This document shows, piece by piece, positions 1-22,019 of a DNA stretch of 22,019 bases. Below the pieces are notes generated by a model. That model saw only the letters and a program-made list of their open reading frames with translations, was not told the DNA's origin and made no database searches. Both the position numbers and the translations under genes were made by a program. The stretch's first letter is position 1. Each line of letters opens with the position of its first letter. Source of the stretch: a virus; IMG/VR virus record IMGVR_UViG_3300045999_000982, positions 1-22,019 of that record; one strand, given 5' to 3'.

Positions 1-353
1 AGACAATAGTGCATGTAACTCCATAGCATATTGTCATAAATTCCTATGATGTTCCATCCGCTTTTTATATACCAATCAAGCAAAAGAACAATCTGCATCA
101 GACAGGCTGTGCATGACAATGCCAGTAGCCAGCAGGTTTCAAGGCAATCCCATTTTCCCTGCCATTTTTGAAACGTCTTTACGCCGGTGTGCAAAGCATG
201 GAGGGTTATAAGGGGGACAATGATGTTCATCGTCCATATACAAATCAGATAATTATCCGTCATCCATGCCAAGAACGGCACAATCAATGCCGCGCAATCC
301 AGCGTAATCGTGAGCCGTACTCCGGCGGGGATGGTGGAGCGAGCGAGGATCAT
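1..353 (-). CDS. Partial polytopic membrane protein, possible holin (C-terminus off the window)
   Basis: This reading frame opens with an ATG at 353-351 that overlaps the TGA of the esterase gene (ATGA, 353-350). It stays open through 117 codons to the window edge, so its 3' end is missing. The product looks like a membrane protein. Hydrophobic stretches lie at about residues 14-31, 36-54 and 74-92. Lys-rich loops separate them, including a Lys/Trp-rich loop near 59-68, and the protein is rich in Trp and Cys. No good Shine-Dalgarno precedes the ATG, so translation probably depends on coupling to the esterase gene. The position right after the last tail gene is where many phages begin their lysis cassette, so a holin or holin-like protein is a reasonable guess. 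No family-specific motif confirms this. A superinfection-exclusion or other membrane moron is the main alternative. Confidence 0.6.
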   Translation of the reverse strand, partial: MILARSTIPAGVRLTITLDCAALIVPFLAWMTDNYLICIWTMNIIVPLITLHALHTGVKTFQKWQGKWDCLETCWLLALSCTACLMQIVLLLDWYIKSGWNIIGIYDNMLWSYMHYC

Positions 354-2683
354 ACCGTGATACCGGCGGTAAATGCGCGAACAGGCACGCCCGCCGCATC
401 GCCAATGACGCTGGCATTGGTGAATACGTTATTGGTGATAACGGGATTCTGTATGTCGATATAATCAACAGCGTATCCAACCATTGGCACACCACTAATT
501 GTCAGTCGGATTGTGTTTGCTGATTGCACTATTGCGCCTGTAATTGTGACCAAGCTCAGCAGATCGTCAAAGACTCTAAATCCAGTAAGCCCCGTGCTGC
601 CCGTCAGTCCCTGCAACGTGCTGCCGTGATTGAGTGTAAACACAACATCTATATCATTGAGTCCGCTAATACTGGCGCTTGCCACAGTCGCGCCAGTCAT
701 TGGGTTAGTGTAGGTGCCGGGGAGTAAATAATTGAGCAGCGCCTGCGCTTGCCGCTTCCCAAGGCGGATGTAACCGGCGGCAGACGGGTGCAGGGCATCT
801 CCATGCGCCAGATCATACATCTCCAACTCAAGCGCATTGGTGATGTTTGGCAGTGCCTGCGCCTGCCCGTTGCGCACTTGTCGCCACCCGGCATCCACTG
901 CTGATGTCCCAGCGGTGTTGGTGCCGAGCTTGGCAATCACCACCGGAAGCGTTGCCGCCGTCCGCCCAGTGATATAGGTGCGGATTTGTGGGATCAGAGC
1001 CTCAAGAGCCGCCTGATATGTTGCTGCACTTGGCGGCGTGCCGTCATTGGCATCATTGGCCCCTTGCAGCCAGTAGATACCCGCATAATCCTGTTCTGTC
1101 AGGGCAATGGCCGTTCGTAATTTACCATGCGTAATCACACTGGTATAAGGCGCGCCCCAATCGGCGCTGCCAGAAGCAAGTTTTGATCCGCTTTTACCGC
1201 ACACGATCCCCATGCATGGCAGTCCGGTGTATTTCCGGATCCTGTCCACCGTGTGCATGATTGATCCGGCGGTCAGGTTTAACGTATTAACCTGCGTATT
1301 ACTGACATCAGCAACCGCCCATCGTCCGGGATTGGCGAGGCGATCATCCGCAAACGTTCCGCTGGCCGGACTGGTGTGCGCTGTGGCGCATCGCCAGATT
1401 GTGTTATCAACCGTATCAACACGGATACTATTCAGTGAGAATGACGTGGAATTGGCCCACGGGTCATTTGCAAAATACAGGATAGAGGAATTTTGCCGAT
1501 CAGGCGTAAATGTGTTTGCAGGATAATCCGTGCTGGCAGTATCTGTCCATGCGCTGCCATCACCTTGCTGTTGTGCGATGGACTCCCCGGTAACAAGGAT
1601 CACTTCCCCCACGCCCCACGGAAGCTGGGTGCGCTGGATGTTGGTTGTTGTGACTGTATCCCGCACCTCAAGCGTCAATTGTCCGCCTTGTGCGACCGTC
1701 AGTGTAACGTTCCACACCCCGGCGGACGGTGTATTGCATCGTGTCCAAGGGGTATTTGCCGTTCCGTCCGCATTGACAACACGGGCCTCAATCCCGGCAG
1801 GTGCGCCCGTGTATGTTCCATTGAATATGATGCTACGGGCTGTGCCTCCGCTGGCCCGCTGGAACACATACCCGTAAACCGCATCGAGCTTGCCGTTAAG
1901 TGTTCCAATCGTGAATGGCATCCCGGTCCATTTTGGCCCGCCCCGTGATATAGGTGCGCCTTGCCGTGTGGCCACATTACCGCCAGATCCGCTGTCATTG
2001 ATTGTGGCACTGGCCGCATCGAGGCGGATATACATTGAGGGGGACAGCACGGAAGGATCGCCGCTAGCCGCCAGCGCATTCACCTGCGCATCACTGACAG
2101 CGCCGTCCACCTTCGCCACATAGCTGATATGCCCGGTGAAGAATCTGCTGCTTAAAGCATCAAAACGGCTTGCGATAAAAGCAGAACCACTTGGCGTAAT
2201 GGCTCCCGGTGTTGTGATTGCAGCCGCGGTGCCGTTTGTAACGCTGCCATCCTGCGGGCACGAAAACACCTGATAATCTGTGCCCGTCCGCCGCATTCCA
2301 ATCAGAAACCAACCGCCCGCATTACTGGCTGCCAGTGTCGCACCAGTCACAATTGTAGAAGCACTGCCTGCGGTGCGCACACGCCCACTGACAATTCCAT
2401 TATTCAGATACAATTCCACCATCTGAACCGCGCCTGTATTACCGTGGTTCCAGATGTGCTGCGTGCCGGATGTTTTGGTGTATTTGATAAGCGCAAACAC
2501 AGTCCAATCCGCATCCGGGTAATTCAAGCTCGCGGCATCATCAACGGTGTAATGGTCATCTACGCCATCAAACCAAACAGAACCACGAGCTGCAACCGTA
2601 ACAGTGCCATTCGGTAATGGAGCGCCAGCACCCAGCCTGCGGTACGATCCAAGTGTTAGCGTTTGGCGTTGCGCGATCCTCAT
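350..2683 (-). CDS. Tail-associated LamG-like / SGNH-esterase-like protein (putative glycan deacetylase)
   Basis: A 777-aa protein, probably a virion enzyme that removes acetyl groups from surface polysaccharide. Residues about 34-200 resemble a concanavalin/LamG-type domain, with a WFDGVDDHYTV start and an HIWNHGN strand region. Residues about 355-655 look like an SGNH or sialate-O-acetylesterase-type hydrolase. The nucleophile candidate is Ser368 in VTGES, where families usually have GQS. The block III motif WLQGAND supplies Asn543, and DALHPSAAGY supplies Asp629 and His632. Residues 657-777 form a Thr/Val-rich beta tail. The frame extends upstream to 2827, but ATG 2683 overlaps the preceding TGA (ATGA, 2683-2680), and the extra 48 residues overlap a convincing gene, so I use 2683. 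Position at the end of the tail genes fits a tailspike or fibre-bound enzyme. Enzymatic activity is inferred from motifs only. Confidence 0.8.
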   Translation of the reverse strand: MRIAQRQTLTLGSYRRLGAGAPLPNGTVTVAARGSVWFDGVDDHYTVDDAASLNYPDADWTVFALIKYTKTSGTQHIWNHGNTGAVQMVELYLNNGIVSGRVRTAGSASTIVTGATLAASNAGGWFLIGMRRTGTDYQVFSCPQDGSVTNGTAAAITTPGAITPSGSAFIASRFDALSSRFFTGHISYVAKVDGAVSDAQVNALAASGDPSVLSPSMYIRLDAASATINDSGSGGNVATRQGAPISRGGPKWTGMPFTIGTLNGKLDAVYGYVFQRASGGTARSIIFNGTYTGAPAGIEARVVNADGTANTPWTRCNTPSAGVWNVTLTVAQGGQLTLEVRDTVTTTNIQRTQLPWGVGEVILVTGESIAQQQGDGSAWTDTASTDYPANTFTPDRQNSSILYFANDPWANSTSFSLNSIRVDTVDNTIWRCATAHTSPASGTFADDRLANPGRWAVADVSNTQVNTLNLTAGSIMHTVDRIRKYTGLPCMGIVCGKSGSKLASGSADWGAPYTSVITHGKLRTAIALTEQDYAGIYWLQGANDANDGTPPSAATYQAALEALIPQIRTYITGRTAATLPVVIAKLGTNTAGTSAVDAGWRQVRNGQAQALPNITNALELEMYDLAHGDALHPSAAGYIRLGKRQAQALLNYLLPGTYTNPMTGATVASASISGLNDIDVVFTLNHGSTLQGLTGSTGLTGFRVFDDLLSLVTITGAIVQSANTIRLTISGVPMVGYAVDYIDIQNPVITNNVFTNASVIGDAAGVPVRAFTAGITV

Positions 2684-2952
2684 TCGTATGCTGCCACCGC
2701 GCCAGATGTGAGCGTGTAAGCCGTCACAGGCCCGATCAGCAACGTACCAGCGGGCAACGTCAGGCCAGTGATTGAACCAGTGCTGTTCGTGCGTGTAAAC
2801 ACCGAAAACACCGTATCGGTCAGGCACACCACTTGGGCAAAATTCACACCCGTGACAGCCGCCGTGTTGGTCGTATACCGCACTGCATTACGGCCATTGT
2901 AATCCGCGCTTACAAACGGCGCGGCAGGCGTTCCGACAACGATTCCAGTCAT
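2680..2952 (-). CDS. Small beta-rich tail-fibre-region protein
   Basis: A 90-aa protein of unknown function. It is rich in Thr, Val, Gly and Ala and has almost no charged residues in its C-terminal half. The ending, with a SITGLTLPAGTLLIG segment followed by YTLTSGAVAAYE, matches the style of small proteins often found beside phage tail-fibre genes. A compact beta-structured virion or fibre-associated protein is therefore likely. The ATG at 2952 overlaps the stop of the upstream 76-aa gene (ATGA), and a GAGG lies about 11 nt ahead of it. Its own TGA overlaps the start of the esterase gene in the same way, so the genes are translationally coupled. I do not see a signal peptide or catalytic motif. 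Confidence 0.7.
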   Translation of the reverse strand: MTGIVVGTPAAPFVSADYNGRNAVRYTTNTAAVTGVNFAQVVCLTDTVFSVFTRTNSTGSITGLTLPAGTLLIGPVTAYTLTSGAVAAYE

Positions 2953-9474: not shown

Positions 9475-9909
9475 TTACTGATCCCACTCCGAATCGCCAC
9501 CATCCCAGACAGAAGCGCCACTATCCCATATCGTGCCAAGGGGCACTGATGTCGTTGCAACGGTCACAATCTCAACAGGCGCAACCGGGTCAGGCTCATA
9601 ATAATACAGGTTATGGGTTGTTCCCATATCCTCATAACTTGGCCGGGATGATGTGCCGTTTTCCTGAATGAAGAACAGTTCGCCCGGCGGCAGTAGCGTG
9701 CTTTTGAAACGGGATGTCAGGCCAAAATCCTTCACCATTTTGACGTTGCTCAAAATGGGTTCATCATCAGCCGTATTGATTGACAGCGACCAGTAGCCGA
9801 AACGATCATTCCACAAGACGCGCAATATGTAGGGATTGCCGGAAAGCTCCACGCTTAGGCGCTGGTCTGATGTTTCAGGATTCAATGGGATAAGGTATGT
9901 CGCGGTCAT
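9475..9909 (-). CDS. Baseplate plug protein (Pam3 gp18-like)
   Basis: A 144-aa protein resembling the baseplate plug family described from cyanophage Pam3, a small protein that closes the tube above the hub. The beta-rich core includes RVLWNDRFGYWSLSI, a strand pair typical of the family, and a GELFFIQENG turn. The C-terminus is odd and tidy, with three Trp-Asp units in a row (WDSG, WDGG, WDQ) spaced seven residues apart. The gene lies between the Dit-like and hub genes, as expected. Its start is 1 nt beyond the Dit-like stop with only a weak ribosome site, suggesting coupling. Confidence 0.75.
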   Translation of the reverse strand: MTATYLIPLNPETSDQRLSVELSGNPYILRVLWNDRFGYWSLSINTADDEPILSNVKMVKDFGLTSRFKSTLLPPGELFFIQENGTSSRPSYEDMGTTHNLYYYEPDPVAPVEIVTVATTSVPLGTIWDSGASVWDGGDSEWDQ

Positions 9910-9910
9910 A

Positions 9911-10552
9911 TCATTTCTTGAAATAATCGTAGATTGACAGGATCACGGATTGTGCTTCTTTTTTGGCCTCCGCCGCCAGTTCCTGCGCTTGTTTGGTACC
10001 GTTGTTTTTTGTGGCTTCTGTTTTGCGTGCCGTTGATCCTTTTTCGCCGCCAGCCTTGGCAGCTTTTGTCGGATTGATCCCGACAGGCACGTCAACGACT
10101 TGCGTTGCCACCTTGCGGATGTTTACGAACTCGGCGTTAAATTCTATCGCCTCACCCTGCGCCGCATTGCGGGGAATGACGACAGAAGTCAGCACCATGT
10201 TATCATAATTGCGGTACTTGGTGTAAACCGTCATCGGCTCCCGCAGCTTGATAAGCTGATACAGGAAGTCAAAGACGGGTTGCGTCCGTGTCTGCGTCGG
10301 GGTGACGTTAAAAAGCCCACTCAGGTTCGCGCTGGTGTAAATCGGCGCATCCGTCACCACGCCGCTGATCCGCAGCTTGTCGGGCATCTCAATGACGTGA
10401 TCCGTCACAGGCGATCCAATTTCGACAGGATTCATTGTGGCATCGGCTTGCCATTCATGCGATTCATCAAGCGTGGCATCAAGCTCGATGTTGCCAAAAG
10501 CATTGCCGAACGACGTTTGAAACCGCTGCCCACCAAAGAAAAGCCCGATCAT
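9911..10552 (-). CDS. Dit-like / proximal baseplate protein
   Basis: A 213-aa protein just downstream of the tape measure. It probably forms the first baseplate ring below the tail tube. Residues 15-150 are beta-rich and include DATLDESHEWQADATMNPVE, a PVTDHVIEMPDKLRISGVVTD-like segment split over two strands, and a Leu-Ile-Lys-Leu-Arg-Glu-Pro helix. This pattern fits Dit-like phage tail proteins that handle a rotated-axis hub ring. The C-terminal 60 residues are Lys/Ala-rich and look disordered or helical, ending in YDYFKK. Start overlaps the tape-measure stop (ATGA). Confidence 0.75.
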   Translation of the reverse strand: MIGLFFGGQRFQTSFGNAFGNIELDATLDESHEWQADATMNPVEIGSPVTDHVIEMPDKLRISGVVTDAPIYTSANLSGLFNVTPTQTRTQPVFDFLYQLIKLREPMTVYTKYRNYDNMVLTSVVIPRNAAQGEAIEFNAEFVNIRKVATQVVDVPVGINPTKAAKAGGEKGSTARKTEATKNNGTKQAQELAAEAKKEAQSVILSIYDYFKK

Positions 10553-11967
10553 CGCGCACCTACCGTATTTGCTATATTACGAGCAAGTGTATCATCAACA
10601 GCTTTATTGATCTCGCGCATCCAGATAGGCGCTTGATCTGGTGAGGTTCCGGGTGGAAGGGTGACGTTGACATTCACATTACTTTGCACTGGTCTGCCAT
10701 TCGCGCCAATGTCCGTAAAATCCATCAGCGGCCTGTTCGCCATTGGACGTGGCGCAAACGATCCCTGTTCAAAGCCAGCCTTTTCAAGGAGCCAAGGTGC
10801 CCACCCGCCCATAAAATTTTTAACATCTTCGCCAAATCGCGCAATGCCGTTAAGCGTTGTAAACCTGTCAATCAGATAATCTACAGCATCAGCCGTGACT
10901 GAGGCATCACCACGAATACCAGCAAACACATCTTGCACAATCAAAGCGGCGGCAAGTACAGCTCCAGCAAGCAATAGCCATTTCGCCCGCAACAGAAATG
11001 TTTTTCGATCGAGCGTTACAAGGCTTTTGATGATCTTTCCGGCAATCACCGTGGTAATCAGGCTGCCAATGTAACTTACAAGGTTACCAAAACCGCCAAA
11101 AGCATCTTTAACCTTGTAAATCCCGGATTCGATAAAATCGAATGACTTTACAATCGTGCCAGCAATTCGCGTGACCGCCATACTTTCGCGGTTCATGCGG
11201 TCAATCATAGCGGTGAAGTCGTTCCGCACGACCTGCGTTGCACCCCCAATGGTCAGCGGGATCGAAAGCATCTGCTTTCTGATTTCCGGGGCCATTTTCT
11301 GAAACGCCAATGCCAAATCTTTGGCGACAAGCTCGCCATTGGCCGACATATCGTAAAGCGCACCAAGGGTGATTTTGGTGTTGCCCGTGACATCCTGAAG
11401 CGCCACAACCATCTTTTCTTTAAAGTCGGTTGAAAGCCCTTCCATGAATGAGCGGAATTCGTCACCGTCTAGTTTGCCCTTCTGAAACGCTTGGGAAAGC
11501 TGGAGCGTGACAGATGCAGCTTCTTCCGTGGTTGCGCCATTAATTGCCAGTGCCTGTGAAATGGCATCTGTGACGGTTAAGACCTCTTCTTGCGTTTTAA
11601 GATAGTCTTTTGTTGCCCCAGCAAGCCGCACATACAAAGTGCCATAAGCATTTAAGGACGTTCTGGCAAAGTTCGCACGTTCGACCAATTCATCAAACGC
11701 CGCGCCAGCGTCTCCAATGGTCTGCGGCACCAGTGCAAGCCGCGCACGCAGACTTTGAGCGGCATCGGCAACACGGGCAAGAGAAGCGGCTGAGGCGAAA
11801 GAAACATACGCCTGAATCATCAAGCCAATGTTTGAACGCGCCTCTTGTGCCGCGCTAGATATTTCGTTGGTTTTTTTCTTGAGATTATCGGCAGCTTCCT
11901 GCCCGCGCTGCAATGCGCTTGAATCAACAGTAAACCCCAGTTTTGTGATAAGCTCGCGGATAATCAT
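10549..11967 (-). CDS. Tape measure protein (short)
   Basis: A 472-aa tape measure, which sets tail length and is packed in the tube lumen. The N-terminus (LITKLGFTVDSSALQRGQEA) leads into a coiled region. Residues 75-270 match the typical tape-measure domain, with YGTLYVRLAGATKDY, the ATTEEAASVTLQLSQAFQKG motif and NGELVAKDLALAFQKMAPEI. Two hydrophobic segments lie at about 295-312 and 329-349. The C-terminus (NVNVNVTLPPGTSPDQ, then an Asp-Asp-rich helix) is of the kind seen in Mu-like tape measures. At roughly 0.15 nm per residue, the general rule for tape measures, the tail tube would be near 70 nm. ATG 11967 overlaps the stop of the frameshifted chaperone product (ATGA, 11967-11964). Confidence 0.92.
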   Translation of the reverse strand: MIIRELITKLGFTVDSSALQRGQEAADNLKKKTNEISSAAQEARSNIGLMIQAYVSFASAASLARVADAAQSLRARLALVPQTIGDAGAAFDELVERANFARTSLNAYGTLYVRLAGATKDYLKTQEEVLTVTDAISQALAINGATTEEAASVTLQLSQAFQKGKLDGDEFRSFMEGLSTDFKEKMVVALQDVTGNTKITLGALYDMSANGELVAKDLALAFQKMAPEIRKQMLSIPLTIGGATQVVRNDFTAMIDRMNRESMAVTRIAGTIVKSFDFIESGIYKVKDAFGGFGNLVSYIGSLITTVIAGKIIKSLVTLDRKTFLLRAKWLLLAGAVLAAALIVQDVFAGIRGDASVTADAVDYLIDRFTTLNGIARFGEDVKNFMGGWAPWLLEKAGFEQGSFAPRPMANRPLMDFTDIGANGRPVQSNVNVNVTLPPGTSPDQAPIWMREINKAVDDTLARNIANTVGAR

Positions 11968-12580
11968 TTCAGAGACTCATGGTATTCTGCTTCGATATCC
12001 GCCTGCATATCAAGGAGAGCATTCAGCGCATGCAAATCCTCAATGGTTGCGGTTCCGTCCTTTACATCCCGCAGCGTTACCTTGCCAGCAAGGATAGGCC
12101 GCCAAATCCATAAATCCGCCTCAACCGCATCGGCCAGATCGCCAGCGTTTACTGTTCGGCTGTCTTTCCTCCGACGAGACCGCCAAAGCGGTTCGCCAGA
12201 GATTTTATAAAAGGGCCGAATTGGTGCTTTGCTACAAGGAAAATCAGCTCATAAAAATCGAACAGATTCTCAGTGGTGAAGCACAAATCAACATCAGTGC
12301 CGCTTTTGATCTGCCGCTTATGCTCCACGCTATACACACGGGATTCTGCGAACAGCGGAAACACAATATCGTCAATGATTTTCTCATCCAGATGCTCGGC
12401 CAGCAGCATTGCCGCCTCTTTCACATCCACATCGCCGATAGAACCTTTCTGCGATACAAGAGCACCCAGAACAGGCACAAGCACCTTCTGAAGCCTCAGA
12501 AAGAGCTTGTTTGCGGCAAAGGCATTCATGCGTACGCAGGTGTACTCACGATTACCGACGATAAAAGTTTCCGTTGTCAT
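11964..12580 (-). CDS. Frameshifted tail assembly chaperone (gpG-T-like fusion, programmed -1 shift)
   Basis: The 143-aa chaperone gene is followed by an open -1 frame that has no plausible start codon of its own near its beginning. It runs to a TGA at 11966-11964 that overlaps the tape-measure ATG. A -1 shift at either candidate slippery site gives a 205-aa fusion. The extension is acidic and helical, with GDLADAVEADLWIWRPILAG and ALNALLDMQADIEAEYHESL. This is the arrangement of lambda gpG/gpGT and its analogues upstream of tape-measure genes, where the extended form binds tape measure and recruits tube protein. The frame, lengths and overlap are seen directly; frameshifting itself is inferred. 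The ORF is too short to appear as a separate gene. Confidence 0.8.
12149..12580 (-). CDS. Tail assembly chaperone (gpG-like, unshifted product)
   Basis: A 143-aa protein encoded between tail tube and tape measure, the standard slot for the tail assembly chaperone. It is mostly helical, with MNAFAANKLFLRLQKVLVPV near the start, an acidic middle (KEAAMLLAEHLDEKIIDDI), and a TTENLFDFYELIFLVAKHQF segment typical of chaperones in this tail type. It ends in GGLVGGKTAEQ. Translation starts at an ATG overlapping the tube stop (TGATG). The in-frame CCC-TTTT heptamer near its end and the open -1 frame beyond indicate a minor, longer product. Confidence 0.85.
   Translation of the reverse strand: MTTETFIVGNREYTCVRMNAFAANKLFLRLQKVLVPVLGALVSQKGSIGDVDVKEAAMLLAEHLDEKIIDDIVFPLFAESRVYSVEHKRQIKSGTDVDLCFTTENLFDFYELIFLVAKHQFGPFIKSLANRFGGLVGGKTAEQ
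12164..12215 (-). promoter_or_regulatory. Candidate -1 ribosomal frameshift region
   Basis: Two heptamers sit in the correct zero-frame phase near the end of the chaperone gene. C-CCT-TTT at 12215-12209 is a perfect X-XXY-YYZ slippery sequence. A-GGA-AAG at 12170-12164 resembles lambda's G-GGA-AAG and overlaps a GGAGG, which could act as a stimulatory Shine-Dalgarno-like element. The -1 frame has no stop codon between the two sites or beyond until 11964. Both sites predict a 205-aa fusion differing only in the peptide between residues 124 and 139. I cannot tell which is used. Confidence 0.65.
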
Positions 12581-13017
12581 CAGTTGCCACCGTGGAACAT
12601 ACGCAGGTCAGCAGCGGTAAACACCCACACGCGCTCGGAAACTTCCTTGCCAAGTGTCAGCTCTGGAATGGTCTTGATCCAGCATTGCGTAGCGGCAGCC
12701 AGTGAACGCCCGGAAAGATCCACAACGGTGATCGGGATAACGGCCTGTCCGCCATTGGCCAGATCATCAATGTTGACCAAAGCCGAAAGCAGATCATTTG
12801 CACCGCTGGTTTGCAGCAACCGGAATTCAAACTCGCCCATGCGGTTTGAATTGCGGGCGCGTGCCACACCACCGTCAGTGCCAACGCGGGTTGTGTAATA
12901 GTCTTCGCTGGCGCGTGCAATAACAGCATCGCCATCAGAAAACGCCGTCACGATGACGGGGCCAACCGTCACCACGACTTGCGATGGATCATAAGAACCG
13001 GAAAGGGTTGCAGCCAT
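12580..13017 (-). CDS. Tail tube protein (DUF3277-like)
   Basis: A 145-aa tail tube subunit located directly after the sheath gene. The sequence has the DUF3277 pattern: GSYDPSQVVVTVGPVIVTAF at the N-terminus, GDAVIARASEDYYTTRVGTD in the middle, then NRMGEFEFRLLQTSGANDLL and an ITVVDLSGRS strand. These fit the beta-barrel tube fold that builds hexameric rings. AGGAG lies 10 nt upstream of the ATG, one of the strongest ribosome sites in the window, consistent with high demand for the protein. The stop overlaps the chaperone start as TGATG. Confidence 0.9.
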   Translation of the reverse strand: MAATLSGSYDPSQVVVTVGPVIVTAFSDGDAVIARASEDYYTTRVGTDGGVARARNSNRMGEFEFRLLQTSGANDLLSALVNIDDLANGGQAVIPITVVDLSGRSLAAATQCWIKTIPELTLGKEVSERVWVFTAADLRMFHGGN

Positions 13018-13030
13018 GATGATTTAGCTC

Positions 13031-14362
13031 CTAAAGTTCGTAAGCAAGAGCGCCAGTGATTTCGACCACATGGATCGCACCAGCAAGGCGGGCAGTGAAT
13101 GACAGATCAAGAATCCGGCTGGCTTTAACCTCCGCCGAAACGTTCGAAGCGCGGGGATAGGTGATGACAAAGCCCGGAACCGTTGCACCTGTGGCATCCA
13201 GCTCATCAGGGGCAATCCCACCAACATTTTGGCCTTCTTGCAAAGAACGCCGCAGGTTGTTGACACACAGCGCAATGCCTTGATCCGTGTACGGCACTTT
13301 GTCACGGTTGATAAGCATCTGCACCATCGACACCTGAATGGTGTCTTTGAGCCAATCCCGGAACCGGATCACATCAATCCACTCGCCGCCAGCGGTCTTG
13401 CCGGGGTTGGTGAGTGCGATGCTTTCCTGATAATATTCAAACGTGTTGCCGCCCTTGTTGAAGATCGTCTGGCGGTTGGTGGCTGTGATTTTGGGCACCG
13501 TGATGCTCGACAGACCTTTGAGCGCCCACGTTTCAGAACCCGGCTGGATCGTAAACACCCGCGCCGCCCAAGCTGCATCAGGGTATTCCGTAGCGGCATT
13601 CGGATGATACAGAACAGCCGTGCGAAAATAGTTGGTTGCCTTAAGCTGACTGATAAGGTCAGTGCTGGAGCCGACGTTCAAAACATCAGCTTCAGATGTC
13701 GCCGTGATGAAAAGCTTTTCATTAGCTTCCACCCACTCGGCAGCGTCAAGCTGTGTCTGCTTCACCCGCTCGGCCATGACAAGGCCGTACCATTCCGGGT
13801 CTTCATCCAGAATGGCGTTCAAATCATCTTCAACCGCAGTGCTGGCCGCAAGCGGAGAGATTGTGCCCCATTGCAGATTGGTCAGCAGTTCAATGGATGA
13901 AATGTTCGTCCCAATCCAAGCCAGCTCGAGCGTGTTGCCGACCACCGTTGCCGTGATGATTTCATCCGTATCAGCAGCCACAGCAGCAGCAAGGCCTGCC
14001 ACAATCTCAGCGGCAGTGGGTGTGCCGTCAGCGGTAAAGCTGTAAGTGTCATTGCCAACCTTGAACGAATACACGCCAAGGGCAATCAGGCTTGACGGCT
14101 GAATCACGCCTTTCAGTACATCGCGGCGGCCAACTTTGACCTTTGTCGGGCGCGGCGTTTGCGAGAACGCATCAGACAGCGCCGTTTTGATATATGGCGG
14201 AAGATCATCCTCAGCAGCGGCGGCATAGCTGGTATAAACGCGCACCCGTTCCGGAAACGTCATCAGCGGCGCAACGATAATGGGGATACCAAACTCGCCA
14301 CGGGTTACGCCGGTGGTTTGCAGGGCAATCTGTACGGAAACGATATCGTCAAGGGTGGCCAT
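13031..14362 (-). CDS. Tail sheath protein (DUF3383-like)
   Basis: A 443-aa contractile sheath subunit of the DUF3383 type. The N-terminus (DDIVSVQIALQTTGVTRGEF) is the handshake-arm and core start typical of the family, followed by IPIIVAPLMTFPERVRVYTS. The C-terminal third includes FIQ-type strands, GKTAGGEWIDVIRFRDWLKD and SRILDLSFTARLAGAIHVVE, which fit the conserved core and C-terminal arm. Residues 96-165 form a small inserted domain (FTADGTPTAAEIVAGLAAA) shared with the baseplate J-like protein. GAGG precedes the ATG. Sheath directly followed by tube, chaperone and tape measure shows this is a contractile-tailed phage. Confidence 0.93.
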   Translation of the reverse strand: MATLDDIVSVQIALQTTGVTRGEFGIPIIVAPLMTFPERVRVYTSYAAAAEDDLPPYIKTALSDAFSQTPRPTKVKVGRRDVLKGVIQPSSLIALGVYSFKVGNDTYSFTADGTPTAAEIVAGLAAAVAADTDEIITATVVGNTLELAWIGTNISSIELLTNLQWGTISPLAASTAVEDDLNAILDEDPEWYGLVMAERVKQTQLDAAEWVEANEKLFITATSEADVLNVGSSTDLISQLKATNYFRTAVLYHPNAATEYPDAAWAARVFTIQPGSETWALKGLSSITVPKITATNRQTIFNKGGNTFEYYQESIALTNPGKTAGGEWIDVIRFRDWLKDTIQVSMVQMLINRDKVPYTDQGIALCVNNLRRSLQEGQNVGGIAPDELDATGATVPGFVITYPRASNVSAEVKASRILDLSFTARLAGAIHVVEITGALAYEL

Positions 14363-19566: not shown

Positions 19567-20376
19567 TCAATCTTCAAATACTGGTTCGGCTCGACAACGG
19601 CATCTGACGGGTTGTCCGGGGTGTCCATCAGACGGCGGATCGTTCCATTTGTAGGTTTTTCCTTCGCGGTCACGGTGGTGAGGCCGCACACGATTATCTT
19701 TGACAGTGCGCCAAATATATTTCTTTACGCCAATGTCTTTAAGACGCTCCTGCGTCATTTTGGAATGCAGCTTAAGTGTCTGGTCTTGCGCAATCAGTTT
19801 TGCACGGGCGGCAGTCATGTCTACCTTTTCCAGAATCATCTTTTGGATGGATTTAACAGACGATCCAGCCATTACTTCACGGCGCACAATGGAGGCGATG
19901 TCTTCATATTGGCGGCCAGACACCGATTTAATCAGCTTGGTGTTTTCGTCAATCCATCCCTCAGCCAACGGACGCAACCACGGCTCGCCTCGAAACGGAT
20001 TCACGCCAAGGCGCGCGCCCGGCGATACGCCAAAGGGCTGCGGCGGTGCAGGCGGCAGATCAATGCCCGTGTTGGCCTTAACCACCAACCGCAGCTGGCG
20101 CTCATTGTTGGCATTGACGGCGGCGAACTGTCCGGGCAAGCGCAAGAACAGCGTACCTTCACGGATTCCGGCCAACCGCAACAGTTCGGCAATCAGCGCA
20201 TCCAATGATTCCACCCACCCGTCACGGCGTGATTCTGTGGCAAACTCGGTTTTGATCTTGCCCATTTCGGGCATCAGCATCTTCGCAATGTCTGCCTTCA
20301 TGCCGCGCGTGTATGCGTTCATCAGACGCACATACTCGCGCTCTGCAGAATCAGGCAGGTTCAGGGTTGTTTTCAT
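19567..20376 (-). CDS. Minor head protein, Mu gpF-like head morphogenesis
   Basis: A 269-aa minor head protein of the Mu gpF type, a component thought to enter the head with the portal and assist assembly. The C-terminal domain has SGRQYEDIASIVRREVMAGS, the helix RAKLIAQDQTLKLHSKMTQE, KKYIWRTVKDNRVRPHHRDR, and the terminal GHPGQPVRCRCRAEPV, where His and the Cys-Arg-Cys signature define the family. The upstream ATG 20406 would add 10 residues, but it lies inside the preceding gene and has no ribosome site. ATG 20376 overlaps the previous TGA (TGATG) and has a weak GAAG, so I use it. Confidence 0.88.
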   Translation of the reverse strand: MKTTLNLPDSAEREYVRLMNAYTRGMKADIAKMLMPEMGKIKTEFATESRRDGWVESLDALIAELLRLAGIREGTLFLRLPGQFAAVNANNERQLRLVVKANTGIDLPPAPPQPFGVSPGARLGVNPFRGEPWLRPLAEGWIDENTKLIKSVSGRQYEDIASIVRREVMAGSSVKSIQKMILEKVDMTAARAKLIAQDQTLKLHSKMTQERLKDIGVKKYIWRTVKDNRVRPHHRDREGKTYKWNDPPSDGHPGQPVRCRCRAEPVFED

Positions 20377-22019
20377 CAGATTCTTCGGCGGGCTTGGACG
20401 TACCATGTGGATGATGCCAGATCAATCGCGGCAGCGGTGTTGTTGTAAAGCGTCAATGTCACGACGCCGTTTGTCCAGTAATCCACATCAGCAAGCGTGT
20501 TTGGCATTGTGCCTTCCACTACGTTTACCGTCACCTCTGTGAGATTCGTGCCGTTGTAGGTGCTGCTGGCAACATATCCATATCCGACAATCGCGCCACC
20601 CACAAGGAACCGCACATAACGCCGTTGCGGAAATTCTGACGTGTGATCAACCCCGGTATCTGTAATAGTGAAAACCGTCGGGTTCAGATATGCCACCGTG
20701 CCGCCGCTGATGTTGGTGAATGCCCCCGGTGTGGTAATGTGCGAATCCAATAGCAGGCCACCAAGGGACACACCCGGAATCACAATAATCTCATCCCGTA
20801 CGGGTGACGTGATGGCATCCGGGATGGTCACGGTGGTGCTGCTGTTGGCACCCGCTGAAATGCTAGGCGGGTTCCATGTAGTGGATTTGACGTTGCGGAT
20901 ACCAGTGAAGTCAACACTGATATTGCCTGTGATGTATTGGTTATCCTCAACCTGCAGAGCGCCAACATTTGAACCAATCACGATGTCATAATATCCACCA
21001 ACACCACCACCGCGCAGCTTGTTACGCTTGATGATGCCAGTTGTGTTGGCGCCAGTTACGGAAACGGCATCGTTTGTGGCTTGGATGTCGTTATCTTCCA
21101 CCACGAAGTTGATTGACGTGGCACCATTGGCAATCGCTGAAAGGTTTGGTTGATAATTAGCGCCATCCATACCAGTGAGAGTGCCACCAACACTGGTCAC
21201 GTTTACCGTTGTTACAGCGGCTGCATAACTGCTGCTTGTGACAATGGCACGCCCGATGACTGTTCCGGTTTGTGTGGCTTCAACGCGCCGCCCGTTGTCA
21301 TAGTTTGCAGTATGGCTGGTGCCATATTTTACGCCATCCATGCCTGCAAGCGCCCCGGTTGCTACCGTGACGTTTATCGTGGTGACGTTTGTGCTGTAAG
21401 TTGGTGTTCCGCTTACTGTACCCGTGGCAATCGTCACCCCGCCAGCTGTGGCCTCAAAATAGGTGCCTGAAGCGTACCGTGAAACGTATGATGTGCCAGT
21501 TTCTGTAATGGTGAATTGCGCAGCGCCCGTGCTGGCAATGGTTCCACTTTGCACTCGCAAATCGGTAATGGTGAATTGTGTCGCACTGGTTCTGGCAACG
21601 GTTCCGTTGGCCTGAGCAACAAACGCCCCATCGCCAATTGTGATTTTGTTGCGGCGGAATGACGTACCACTTCCATTGGTGATAACACCAAAGATGGAAG
21701 CCGCTACTGTAGATCCAGCAGCAACAGAAATCACGTTGTCTTCAAAGCGGCTGTTTGTGATGTTCTGGAAATAGAACTGGTTAGCTGTTCCATCGCTGGC
21801 GGCATATTCCAGATAGTTATCATGCACCCATAAACGATCCACTTCGCGCAGGAAGTGCCCCTTATGGCCTCGGAAATCGCAATTATGAACTCGAATATCC
21901 GTTGCGAAACGGGTATTTGATCCTTTGTCTGCGTCAACATTAATCCAAAAGCGCCCACCGTTTCCACGGCAATTTCTAATGATAATCTGCTCAAGGTGCA
22001 AATCGTTAGAAAACGCATC
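20376..22019 (-). CDS. Beta-helix spike-like protein, 5'-partial
   Basis: The frame is open to the right edge, so the N-terminus is missing; 547 codons are seen. A TTG at 22001 is an internal codon, not a convincing start. Numbering from it, residues 5-130 and 298-375 look like right-handed parallel beta-helix coils, with repeated Arg/Glu-Asn-x-Ile turns (IRNCRGN, VHNCDFRG, VHDNYLEYA, FEDNVISV, VEDNDIQA, IKRNKLRG, VEDNQYITG). Two related beta modules (about 161-227 and 228-284) interrupt the helix and a third is near 442-509. Beta-helix proteins of this kind are usually tail spikes binding or cutting polysaccharide. Its place just before the minor head gene is unexpected. It may be a head-located fibre or a misplaced spike. 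No catalytic residues can be assigned. Confidence 0.8.
   Translation of the reverse strand, partial: DAFSNDLHLEQIIIRNCRGNGGRFWINVDADKGSNTRFATDIRVHNCDFRGHKGHFLREVDRLWVHDNYLEYAASDGTANQFYFQNITNSRFEDNVISVAAGSTVAASIFGVITNGSGTSFRRNKITIGDGAFVAQANGTVARTSATQFTITDLRVQSGTIASTGAAQFTITETGTSYVSRYASGTYFEATAGGVTIATGTVSGTPTYSTNVTTINVTVATGALAGMDGVKYGTSHTANYDNGRRVEATQTGTVIGRAIVTSSSYAAAVTTVNVTSVGGTLTGMDGANYQPNLSAIANGATSINFVVEDNDIQATNDAVSVTGANTTGIIKRNKLRGGGVGGYYDIVIGSNVGALQVEDNQYITGNISVDFTGIRNVKSTTWNPPSISAGANSSTTVTIPDAITSPVRDEIIVIPGVSLGGLLLDSHITTPGAFTNISGGTVAYLNPTVFTITDTGVDHTSEFPQRRYVRFLVGGAIVGYGYVASSTYNGTNLTEVTVNVVEGTMPNTLADVDYWTNGVVTLTLYNNTAAAIDLASSTWYVQARRRI
20475..20678 (-). repeat. Third copy of a beta module in the spike-like gene
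   Basis: The segment codes for FTITDTGVDHTSEFPQRRYV and on to a TEVTVNVVEGTMPNTLADVDYW ending. It follows the same order as the two modules at 21150-21521: a TIT-x-TG start, a Tyr/Arg-Arg-Tyr/Phe-Val or -Glu strand, a Gly-x-Val-Ala-Ser-Ser-Thr/Ser-Tyr turn, a VTVNV strand and an Asp-Gly/Asp-Val-Asp-Tyr end. Similarity is at protein level and imperfect. Confidence 0.55.
21150..21521 (-). repeat. Two tandem copies of a beta module in the spike-like gene
   Basis: Two successive modules end in the same way: TTINVTVATGALAGMDGVKY and TTVNVTSVGGTLTGMDGANY. Each is preceded by a Gly-Thr-Val strand and a short Ser/Tyr-rich turn, so they are duplicates of one domain of about 60 residues. They interrupt the beta-helix coils on either side, suggesting that a domain was inserted and duplicated. 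Confidence 0.65.
21505..21605. repeat. Short imperfect direct DNA repeat, 60-bp offset
   Basis: The 14-mer GTAATGGTGAATTG (plus strand) starts at 21505 and again at 21565, and the next 27 bases remain partly alike, ending in GGTTCC each time. The repeat codes for the pair ATQFTITD and AAQFTITE. The 60-bp offset keeps the frame, so it is a recent-looking in-frame duplication beside the larger modules. Confidence 0.75.

Follow-up and report, generated by a model that had tools for sequence, protein, structure and literature searches.

A conserved C-CCT-TTT column as the probable site of a programmed -1 frameshift in the tail assembly chaperone gene of a family of contractile-tailed phages

Does the tail assembly chaperone gene of this phage direct a programmed -1 frameshift and, in this case, at which of two candidate sites would the ribosome shift? 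We considered this question for a 22,019-base virus record of IMG/VR (hereafter the window, meaning the whole stretch of DNA analysed), whose tail module is read on the minus strand. A first reading of the sequence alone had described a 143-aa chaperone ORF at 12580-12149 (-), a -1 frame that stays open to 11964 and overlaps the tape-measure ATG, and two slippery sites, C-CCT-TTT (12215-12209) and A-GGA-AAG (12170-12164), each of which would lead to a 205-aa fusion. The coordinates of the ORF, the overlap, the zero-frame phase of both sites and the length of the fusion from either of them all proved to be correct. The comparative evidence given below speaks strongly for a programmed -1 frameshift that yields a lambda gpGT-like fusion, whereas the proposal of two sites did not hold, given that only C-CCT-TTT is conserved.

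The tail module is of the contractile type and includes genes for sheath-like, tube-like, chaperone, tape measure, Dit-like, baseplate hub and other proteins, all on the minus strand. Precisely, the sheath-like gene is at 13031-14362 (-; phrog_205, DUF3383), the gene for the tail-tube-like protein, presumed to be the partner of the -1 extension, at 12580-13017 (-; phrog_280; PF11681 KPP10_Orf10), the short chaperone (TAC-N, zero frame) at 12149-12580 (-) and the 472-aa tape measure protein at 10549-11967 (-; PF20155 TMP_3, E = 9e-42; TIGR02675). The chaperone gene lies between the tail-tube-like and the tape-measure genes, the order that we looked for in a chaperone pair of the lambda gpG/gpGT kind, and the tape-measure ATG (11967) overlaps the stop codon TGA of the extension (11966-11964) as ATGA. 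Beside its ORF and gene position, the chaperone was assigned by its matches to PF21822 Phage_TAC_15 (E = 2.3e-20; 73.8 bits vs a curated cut-off of 22) and to phrog_1613 (tail assembly chaperone, E = 1.6e-20).

Three further genes of the minus strand were recorded in passing. The product of 9475-9909 (-) matches the baseplate plug gp18 of cyanophage Pam3 (PF22479, E = 2e-22), which suggests a simple contractile tail of the Pam3 type. A large late gene at 350-2827 (-) has a SASA-type carbohydrate esterase domain (PF03629, E = 8e-12) and probably codes for a tail protein that modifies a surface glycan. The long ORF at 20376-22019 (-), open at the window edge and adjoining a Mu-F-like head gene, contains repeated 'TQFTITD' / 'TTINVT' segments and had no match in Pfam; its product is possibly a beta-helical or receptor-binding protein.

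C-CCT-TTT (12215-12209, -) is the sole perfect X-XXY-YYZ heptamer in zero-frame phase across the chaperone gene. It lies inside the overlap of the two frames, as a slippery site of a -1 programmed ribosomal frameshift (PRF) signal should, and the +1 frame is closed at this point. About 0.1 heptamers are expected by chance in the overlap of ~30 codons, and the presence of one is unremarkable by itself. A lone heptamer is therefore weak evidence, and we considered the homologues as decisive.

By tblastn in phage records we found the chaperone in 14 records, at about 30-34% identity. Scans of IMG/VR for homologous loci gave 8 and then 80 loci; after the removal of duplicates, 72 distinct loci (27-99% identity) were considered. 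Scans of genome contigs found no relative. As representatives we took 35 sequences that were less than 85% identical in DNA, of which 20 were on the window's side of the family and 15 on the other side.

The alignment of homologues, proposed in the sequence-only reading as the way to identify a conserved heptamer, singled out one column: C-CCT-TTT and/or the overlapping T-TTT-TTN was present, in phase, at codons P123-F124 in 72/72 distinct loci. Among the 35 representatives, 8 had C-CCT-TTT only, 21 had both heptamers (C-CCT-TTT-TTN), 6 had T-TTT-TTN only and none had neither. Where Pro is replaced at the P123 column, the codon is GTT, GCT or ACT, all of which end in the T needed by T-TTT-TTN; similarly, this second heptamer is present in both loci with a G before CCT (L031 and L043). 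The pairwise synonymous codon identity was 1.0 at both P123 and F124, compared with a mean of 0.43 (s.d. 0.15) over 127 columns, and elsewhere in the gene Pro is coded by CCG, CCT, CCA and CCC and Phe by TTT and TTC. Both C_CCU_UUU and U_UUU_UUY belong to the H_HHU_UUY class, which was efficient when measured in E. coli, a species that may not match the host of this phage (PMC4066793).

In the window, the -1 frame has no stop between one at 12251 and the TGA at 11966-11964, and from the slip site onwards it codes for an extension of 81 aa plus TGA (12209-11964, -), the C-terminal domain of the 205-aa fusion. This extension was intact in 71/72 distinct loci. The sole locus with an internal stop was L074 (IMGVR_UViG_2588253796_000004), with a TAG ~41-44 nt past the chaperone stop, at a position with a sense codon in its near relative L075; either the copy is broken or the TAG is a sequencing error. 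The pooled pN/pS of the extension was 0.159 over 223 pairs, indicating purifying selection. No -1-frame stop interrupts the stretch from the slip site to the zero-frame stop in any of the representatives (35/35 open), whereas recoding the zero frame synonymously 2000 times left on average 9.9 of them open, and never more than 20. From these tests of selection we infer that the -1 frame is also translated.

Past the zero-frame stop the core of the extension reads ELWIWRPI...VT...EVK.G...DL..LNALLDMQ.D, and W9, W34, W36, P38, V49, G52 and N63 of the extension are invariant (alignment A5). The extension matches phrog_4364 ('unknown function', E = 1.5e-10) and, modelled alone at pLDDT 90, is predicted to form a small, mostly helical domain. 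We found no relative of it in the PDB, either by sequence or by fold, and all its matches in BFVD were uncharacterised proteins of phages, among them one of 52 aa from Pectobacterium phage PM1. It had been described as acidic and helical: the second term applies to its C-terminal half, while the acidic character is only mild (about 15 acidic vs 12 basic residues).

Inside the overlap, a -1-frame TGG (Trp 9 of the extension; 12185-12183, -) is dual-coded with zero-frame F132-G133. This Trp was present in 72/72 loci, 8 codons after the slip in 68 of them and 9 codons in the other 4. The codon of F132 is always TTT, the sole other fully invariant codon choice besides P123 and F124, because its third T and the GG of G133 encode the -1-frame Trp. 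On the upstream side, the last -1 stops are as near as 6 nt to the slip base (L076), and 12 nt in several other loci. The shift is hence bracketed by the upstream -1 stops and the downstream -1 Trp, which place it around the heptamer and before A-GGA-AAG.

This bracketing bears directly on the second candidate, according to which the shift would occur at A-GGA-AAG (12170-12164, -), aided by the overlapping GGAGG, either alone or besides C-CCT-TTT. We consider this very improbable, even if the site has the right phase and includes A_AAG, the tetramer that slips best in E. coli (PMC4066793), and GGAGG is a strong match to the anti-Shine-Dalgarno sequence. In fact, a shift at this point would not make the upstream Trp, and the site, which falls short of a perfect heptamer since AGG is not XXX, is seen only in the window and in three of its nearest relatives (L006, L007 and L015), with A-GGA-AAA in L008 and L017 and neither form from L009/L018 on. 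For these reasons, i.e. the invariant Trp and the limited distribution, A-GGA-AAG was rejected as a programmed site; it may add minor leakage in the window's lineage. Moreover, its GGAG is base-paired in the predicted hairpin described below, which the first reading did not mention, and the GGAGG, which had been taken for a Shine-Dalgarno-like element, more plausibly belongs to the 3' arm of that hairpin.

Still less probable is a separate small gene for the extension, translated from a start codon of its own. A separate ORF is annotated for it in LIET2, MII_001 and Meifeng, and PHROGs holds it as a family of its own, but an ATG between the slip site and the extension core was found in 0/34 loci, and 16 of these 34, the window included, have no ATG, GTG or TTG at all before the core. 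In the window, the only such codons in the -1 frame after the slip site are the TTG at 12035 and the ATG at 12008, and neither is more than 23 codons away from the stop. A start with any Shine-Dalgarno-like 4-mer was found in only 2 loci, and the -1 frame is constrained inside the chaperone gene too. A separate start codon with a ribosome footprint and stops in the homologous extensions had been named beforehand as findings that would count against a frameshift; the latter were limited to L074. Transcriptional slippage on the T run as the origin of the fusion, instead of ribosomal frameshifting, has a negligible probability: long T runs do occur in some relatives (8 T in L076), but in the window there are 4 T and then an A, a run shorter than usual for such slippage, and the preserved tandem-codon X-XXY-YYZ phase fits slippage of tRNAs.

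A frameshift at C-CCT-TTT could be helped by a stimulator, for which 7 nt past the slippery heptamer is a classical position. Here a spacer of 7 nt (12208-12202, -) is followed by a predicted stimulatory hairpin of 14 bp (9+5, with one bulged base) with a 4-nt loop (12201-12169, -), the 3' arm of which contains the GGAG of GGAGG. For the 49 nt past the heptamer the predicted folding energy is -23 kcal/mol (z -5.4, 0/200 shuffles). A structure some 5-9 nt past the heptamer, as sought in a -1 PRF signal, is hence present in the window, although it is not family-wide. Precisely, considering stretches of 45 nt in the 20 window-side representatives, the mean z was -1.49 at the hairpin place, with 40% of values below -2, and between -0.87 and +0.22 at other offsets from -300 to +120; in the other 15 representatives there was no structure at the hairpin place (mean z -0.03). 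Among 25 window-side sequences, paired changes (both sides changed) were 30 vs 18.7+-3.2 in shuffles and the true register was the best one, in a test that leans in favour of the hairpin since its structure was derived from the window. RNAalifold gave no consensus on the same 25 sequences, whose stems share a TTTG apex with a drifting register, and a search of Rfam gave no match. Taken together, the z-scores, the paired changes and the lack of an RNAalifold consensus indicate that the hairpin is likely a frameshift stimulator in the window and its window-side relatives, and not in general.

We also considered an upstream internal Shine-Dalgarno sequence as a family-wide stimulator, and rejected it in view of the fact that only parts of the family carry one and the window has none. 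In part of the window side (a subset of L018-L052) there is a GAGG(T) 10-11 nt before the heptamer, in the column of window residue 118; the Arg of this column is coded by AGG in 9/12 cases vs 11/151 Arg codons elsewhere in the gene. In these relatives it is a possible internal Shine-Dalgarno stimulator, which the window lacks. Other relatives (such as L053 and L074-L089), mostly on the family side without the hairpin, have GGGAGG 19 nt upstream of the heptamer, coded by a conserved Trp-Glu-Val. This is farther than usual for a stimulatory Shine-Dalgarno sequence and may reflect only coding constraint.

The two heptamers of the conserved column may be related by a relay, a reading that we somewhat favour: the invariant Phe TTT would anchor both C-CCT-TTT and T-TTT-TTN, and lineages would swap one for the other only via C-CCT-TTT-TTN, which carries both. 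If the exchange went only through this double state, frameshifting would never be lost while the site moved by one codon. Mapped onto a tree built from the flanking protein sequence, the three heptamer states require 7 changes. This number does not rise when the order C-only, both, T-only is imposed, while the other orders need 10 or 11. Long branches and open forks in the tree make this order suggestive. Among more distant phages that share a homologous extension, T-TTT-TTC is found in POR1, MiCath and ZPAH140, and the overlapping heptamers G-GGA-AAT / A-AAT-TTT / T-TTT-TTG are found in Mulock, ST11-OXA48phi15.1 and AbTJ; these look as if they occupied the same place as C-CCT-TTT.

On the comparative evidence, a -1 frameshift at C-CCT-TTT with the hairpin, producing short and long chaperones as in lambda, is very probably the best explanation of the locus. 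We infer the slippage, its efficiency, the effect of the hairpin and the role in assembly as follows. Most ribosomes would terminate at the end of 12580-12149 and release the 143-aa chaperone. In a minority, held up by the hairpin (12201-12169) while tRNA-Pro and tRNA-Phe occupy C-CCU-UUU, the tRNAs would re-pair one base back (CCU to CCC, UUU to UUU) and reading would continue in the -1 frame, giving the 205-aa fusion with its 81-residue C-terminal domain. If the two products work as gpG and gpGT do in lambda, the tape measure protein would be coated by the short form, and tail tube subunits would be brought in by the few copies of the long one. In the model of the short form (pLDDT 83), F124 sits in the last helix (103-136), so that the short and long products diverge inside that helix. 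The best match of the short form in the PDB was 5IR0, ORF19 of a PICI-like element of Vibrio cholerae, by sequence (E 5e-4) and, weakly, by fold.

The lambda gpG/gpGT mechanism and its spread have been reviewed (PMC5009743). As in lambda, the chaperone is between the tail tube and tape-measure genes and the extension overlaps the start of the tape measure, and the same heptamer scan recovers the known G-GGA-AAG of lambda. Unlike lambda, the chaperone is of a different family, the heptamer is C-CCT-TTT, the extension is of 81 aa instead of about 144 and has no detectable PDB relative, and the tail is contractile with a sheath. A GTTTTT -1 PRF with conserved -1 reading has been described in myovirus chaperones (TAC-N/TAC-NC) of Vandenendeviridae/Andersonviridae, Pakpunavirus and phage Adele (PMC12846349); their GTTTTT differs from the present C-CCT-TTT, and the likeness is in the recoding mechanism. 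In the literature searched, which does not include the list published by Xu et al. (2004), we found no precedent of CCCTTTT for tail chaperones.

Closer to the window are Dibbivirus, Erwinia phage phiEt88, Pantoea phage LIET2 and Hafnia phage Meifeng, with a homologous chaperone, extension and C-CCT-TTT(-TTN) column, on a side of the family in which no hairpin was detected. Klebsiella phage Mulock (QFG06717.1) has a homologous extension (31% identity) annotated as a joined chaperone frameshift product, although it is distant and its site region, G-GGA-AAT-TTT-TTG, has three overlapping heptamers and no C-CCT-TTT. A joined CDS is absent in the records of PSKM, phiEt88, LIET2, Meifeng and MII_001. 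In these phages the frameshift is usually unannotated, although it is marked in Mulock.

As judged from the homologues, the locus is a well-supported new case of the known lambda-like recoding, fixed to one exact site. It corrects the gene models of a family of contractile-tailed phages, in which the extension is now given as 'unknown function' (phrog_4364, phrog_16972) or is unannotated. It is also a well-sampled case of a recoding site that changes its heptamer and its stimulator while its function is apparently kept, and the evolution of a frameshift signal without loss becomes directly testable in this family.
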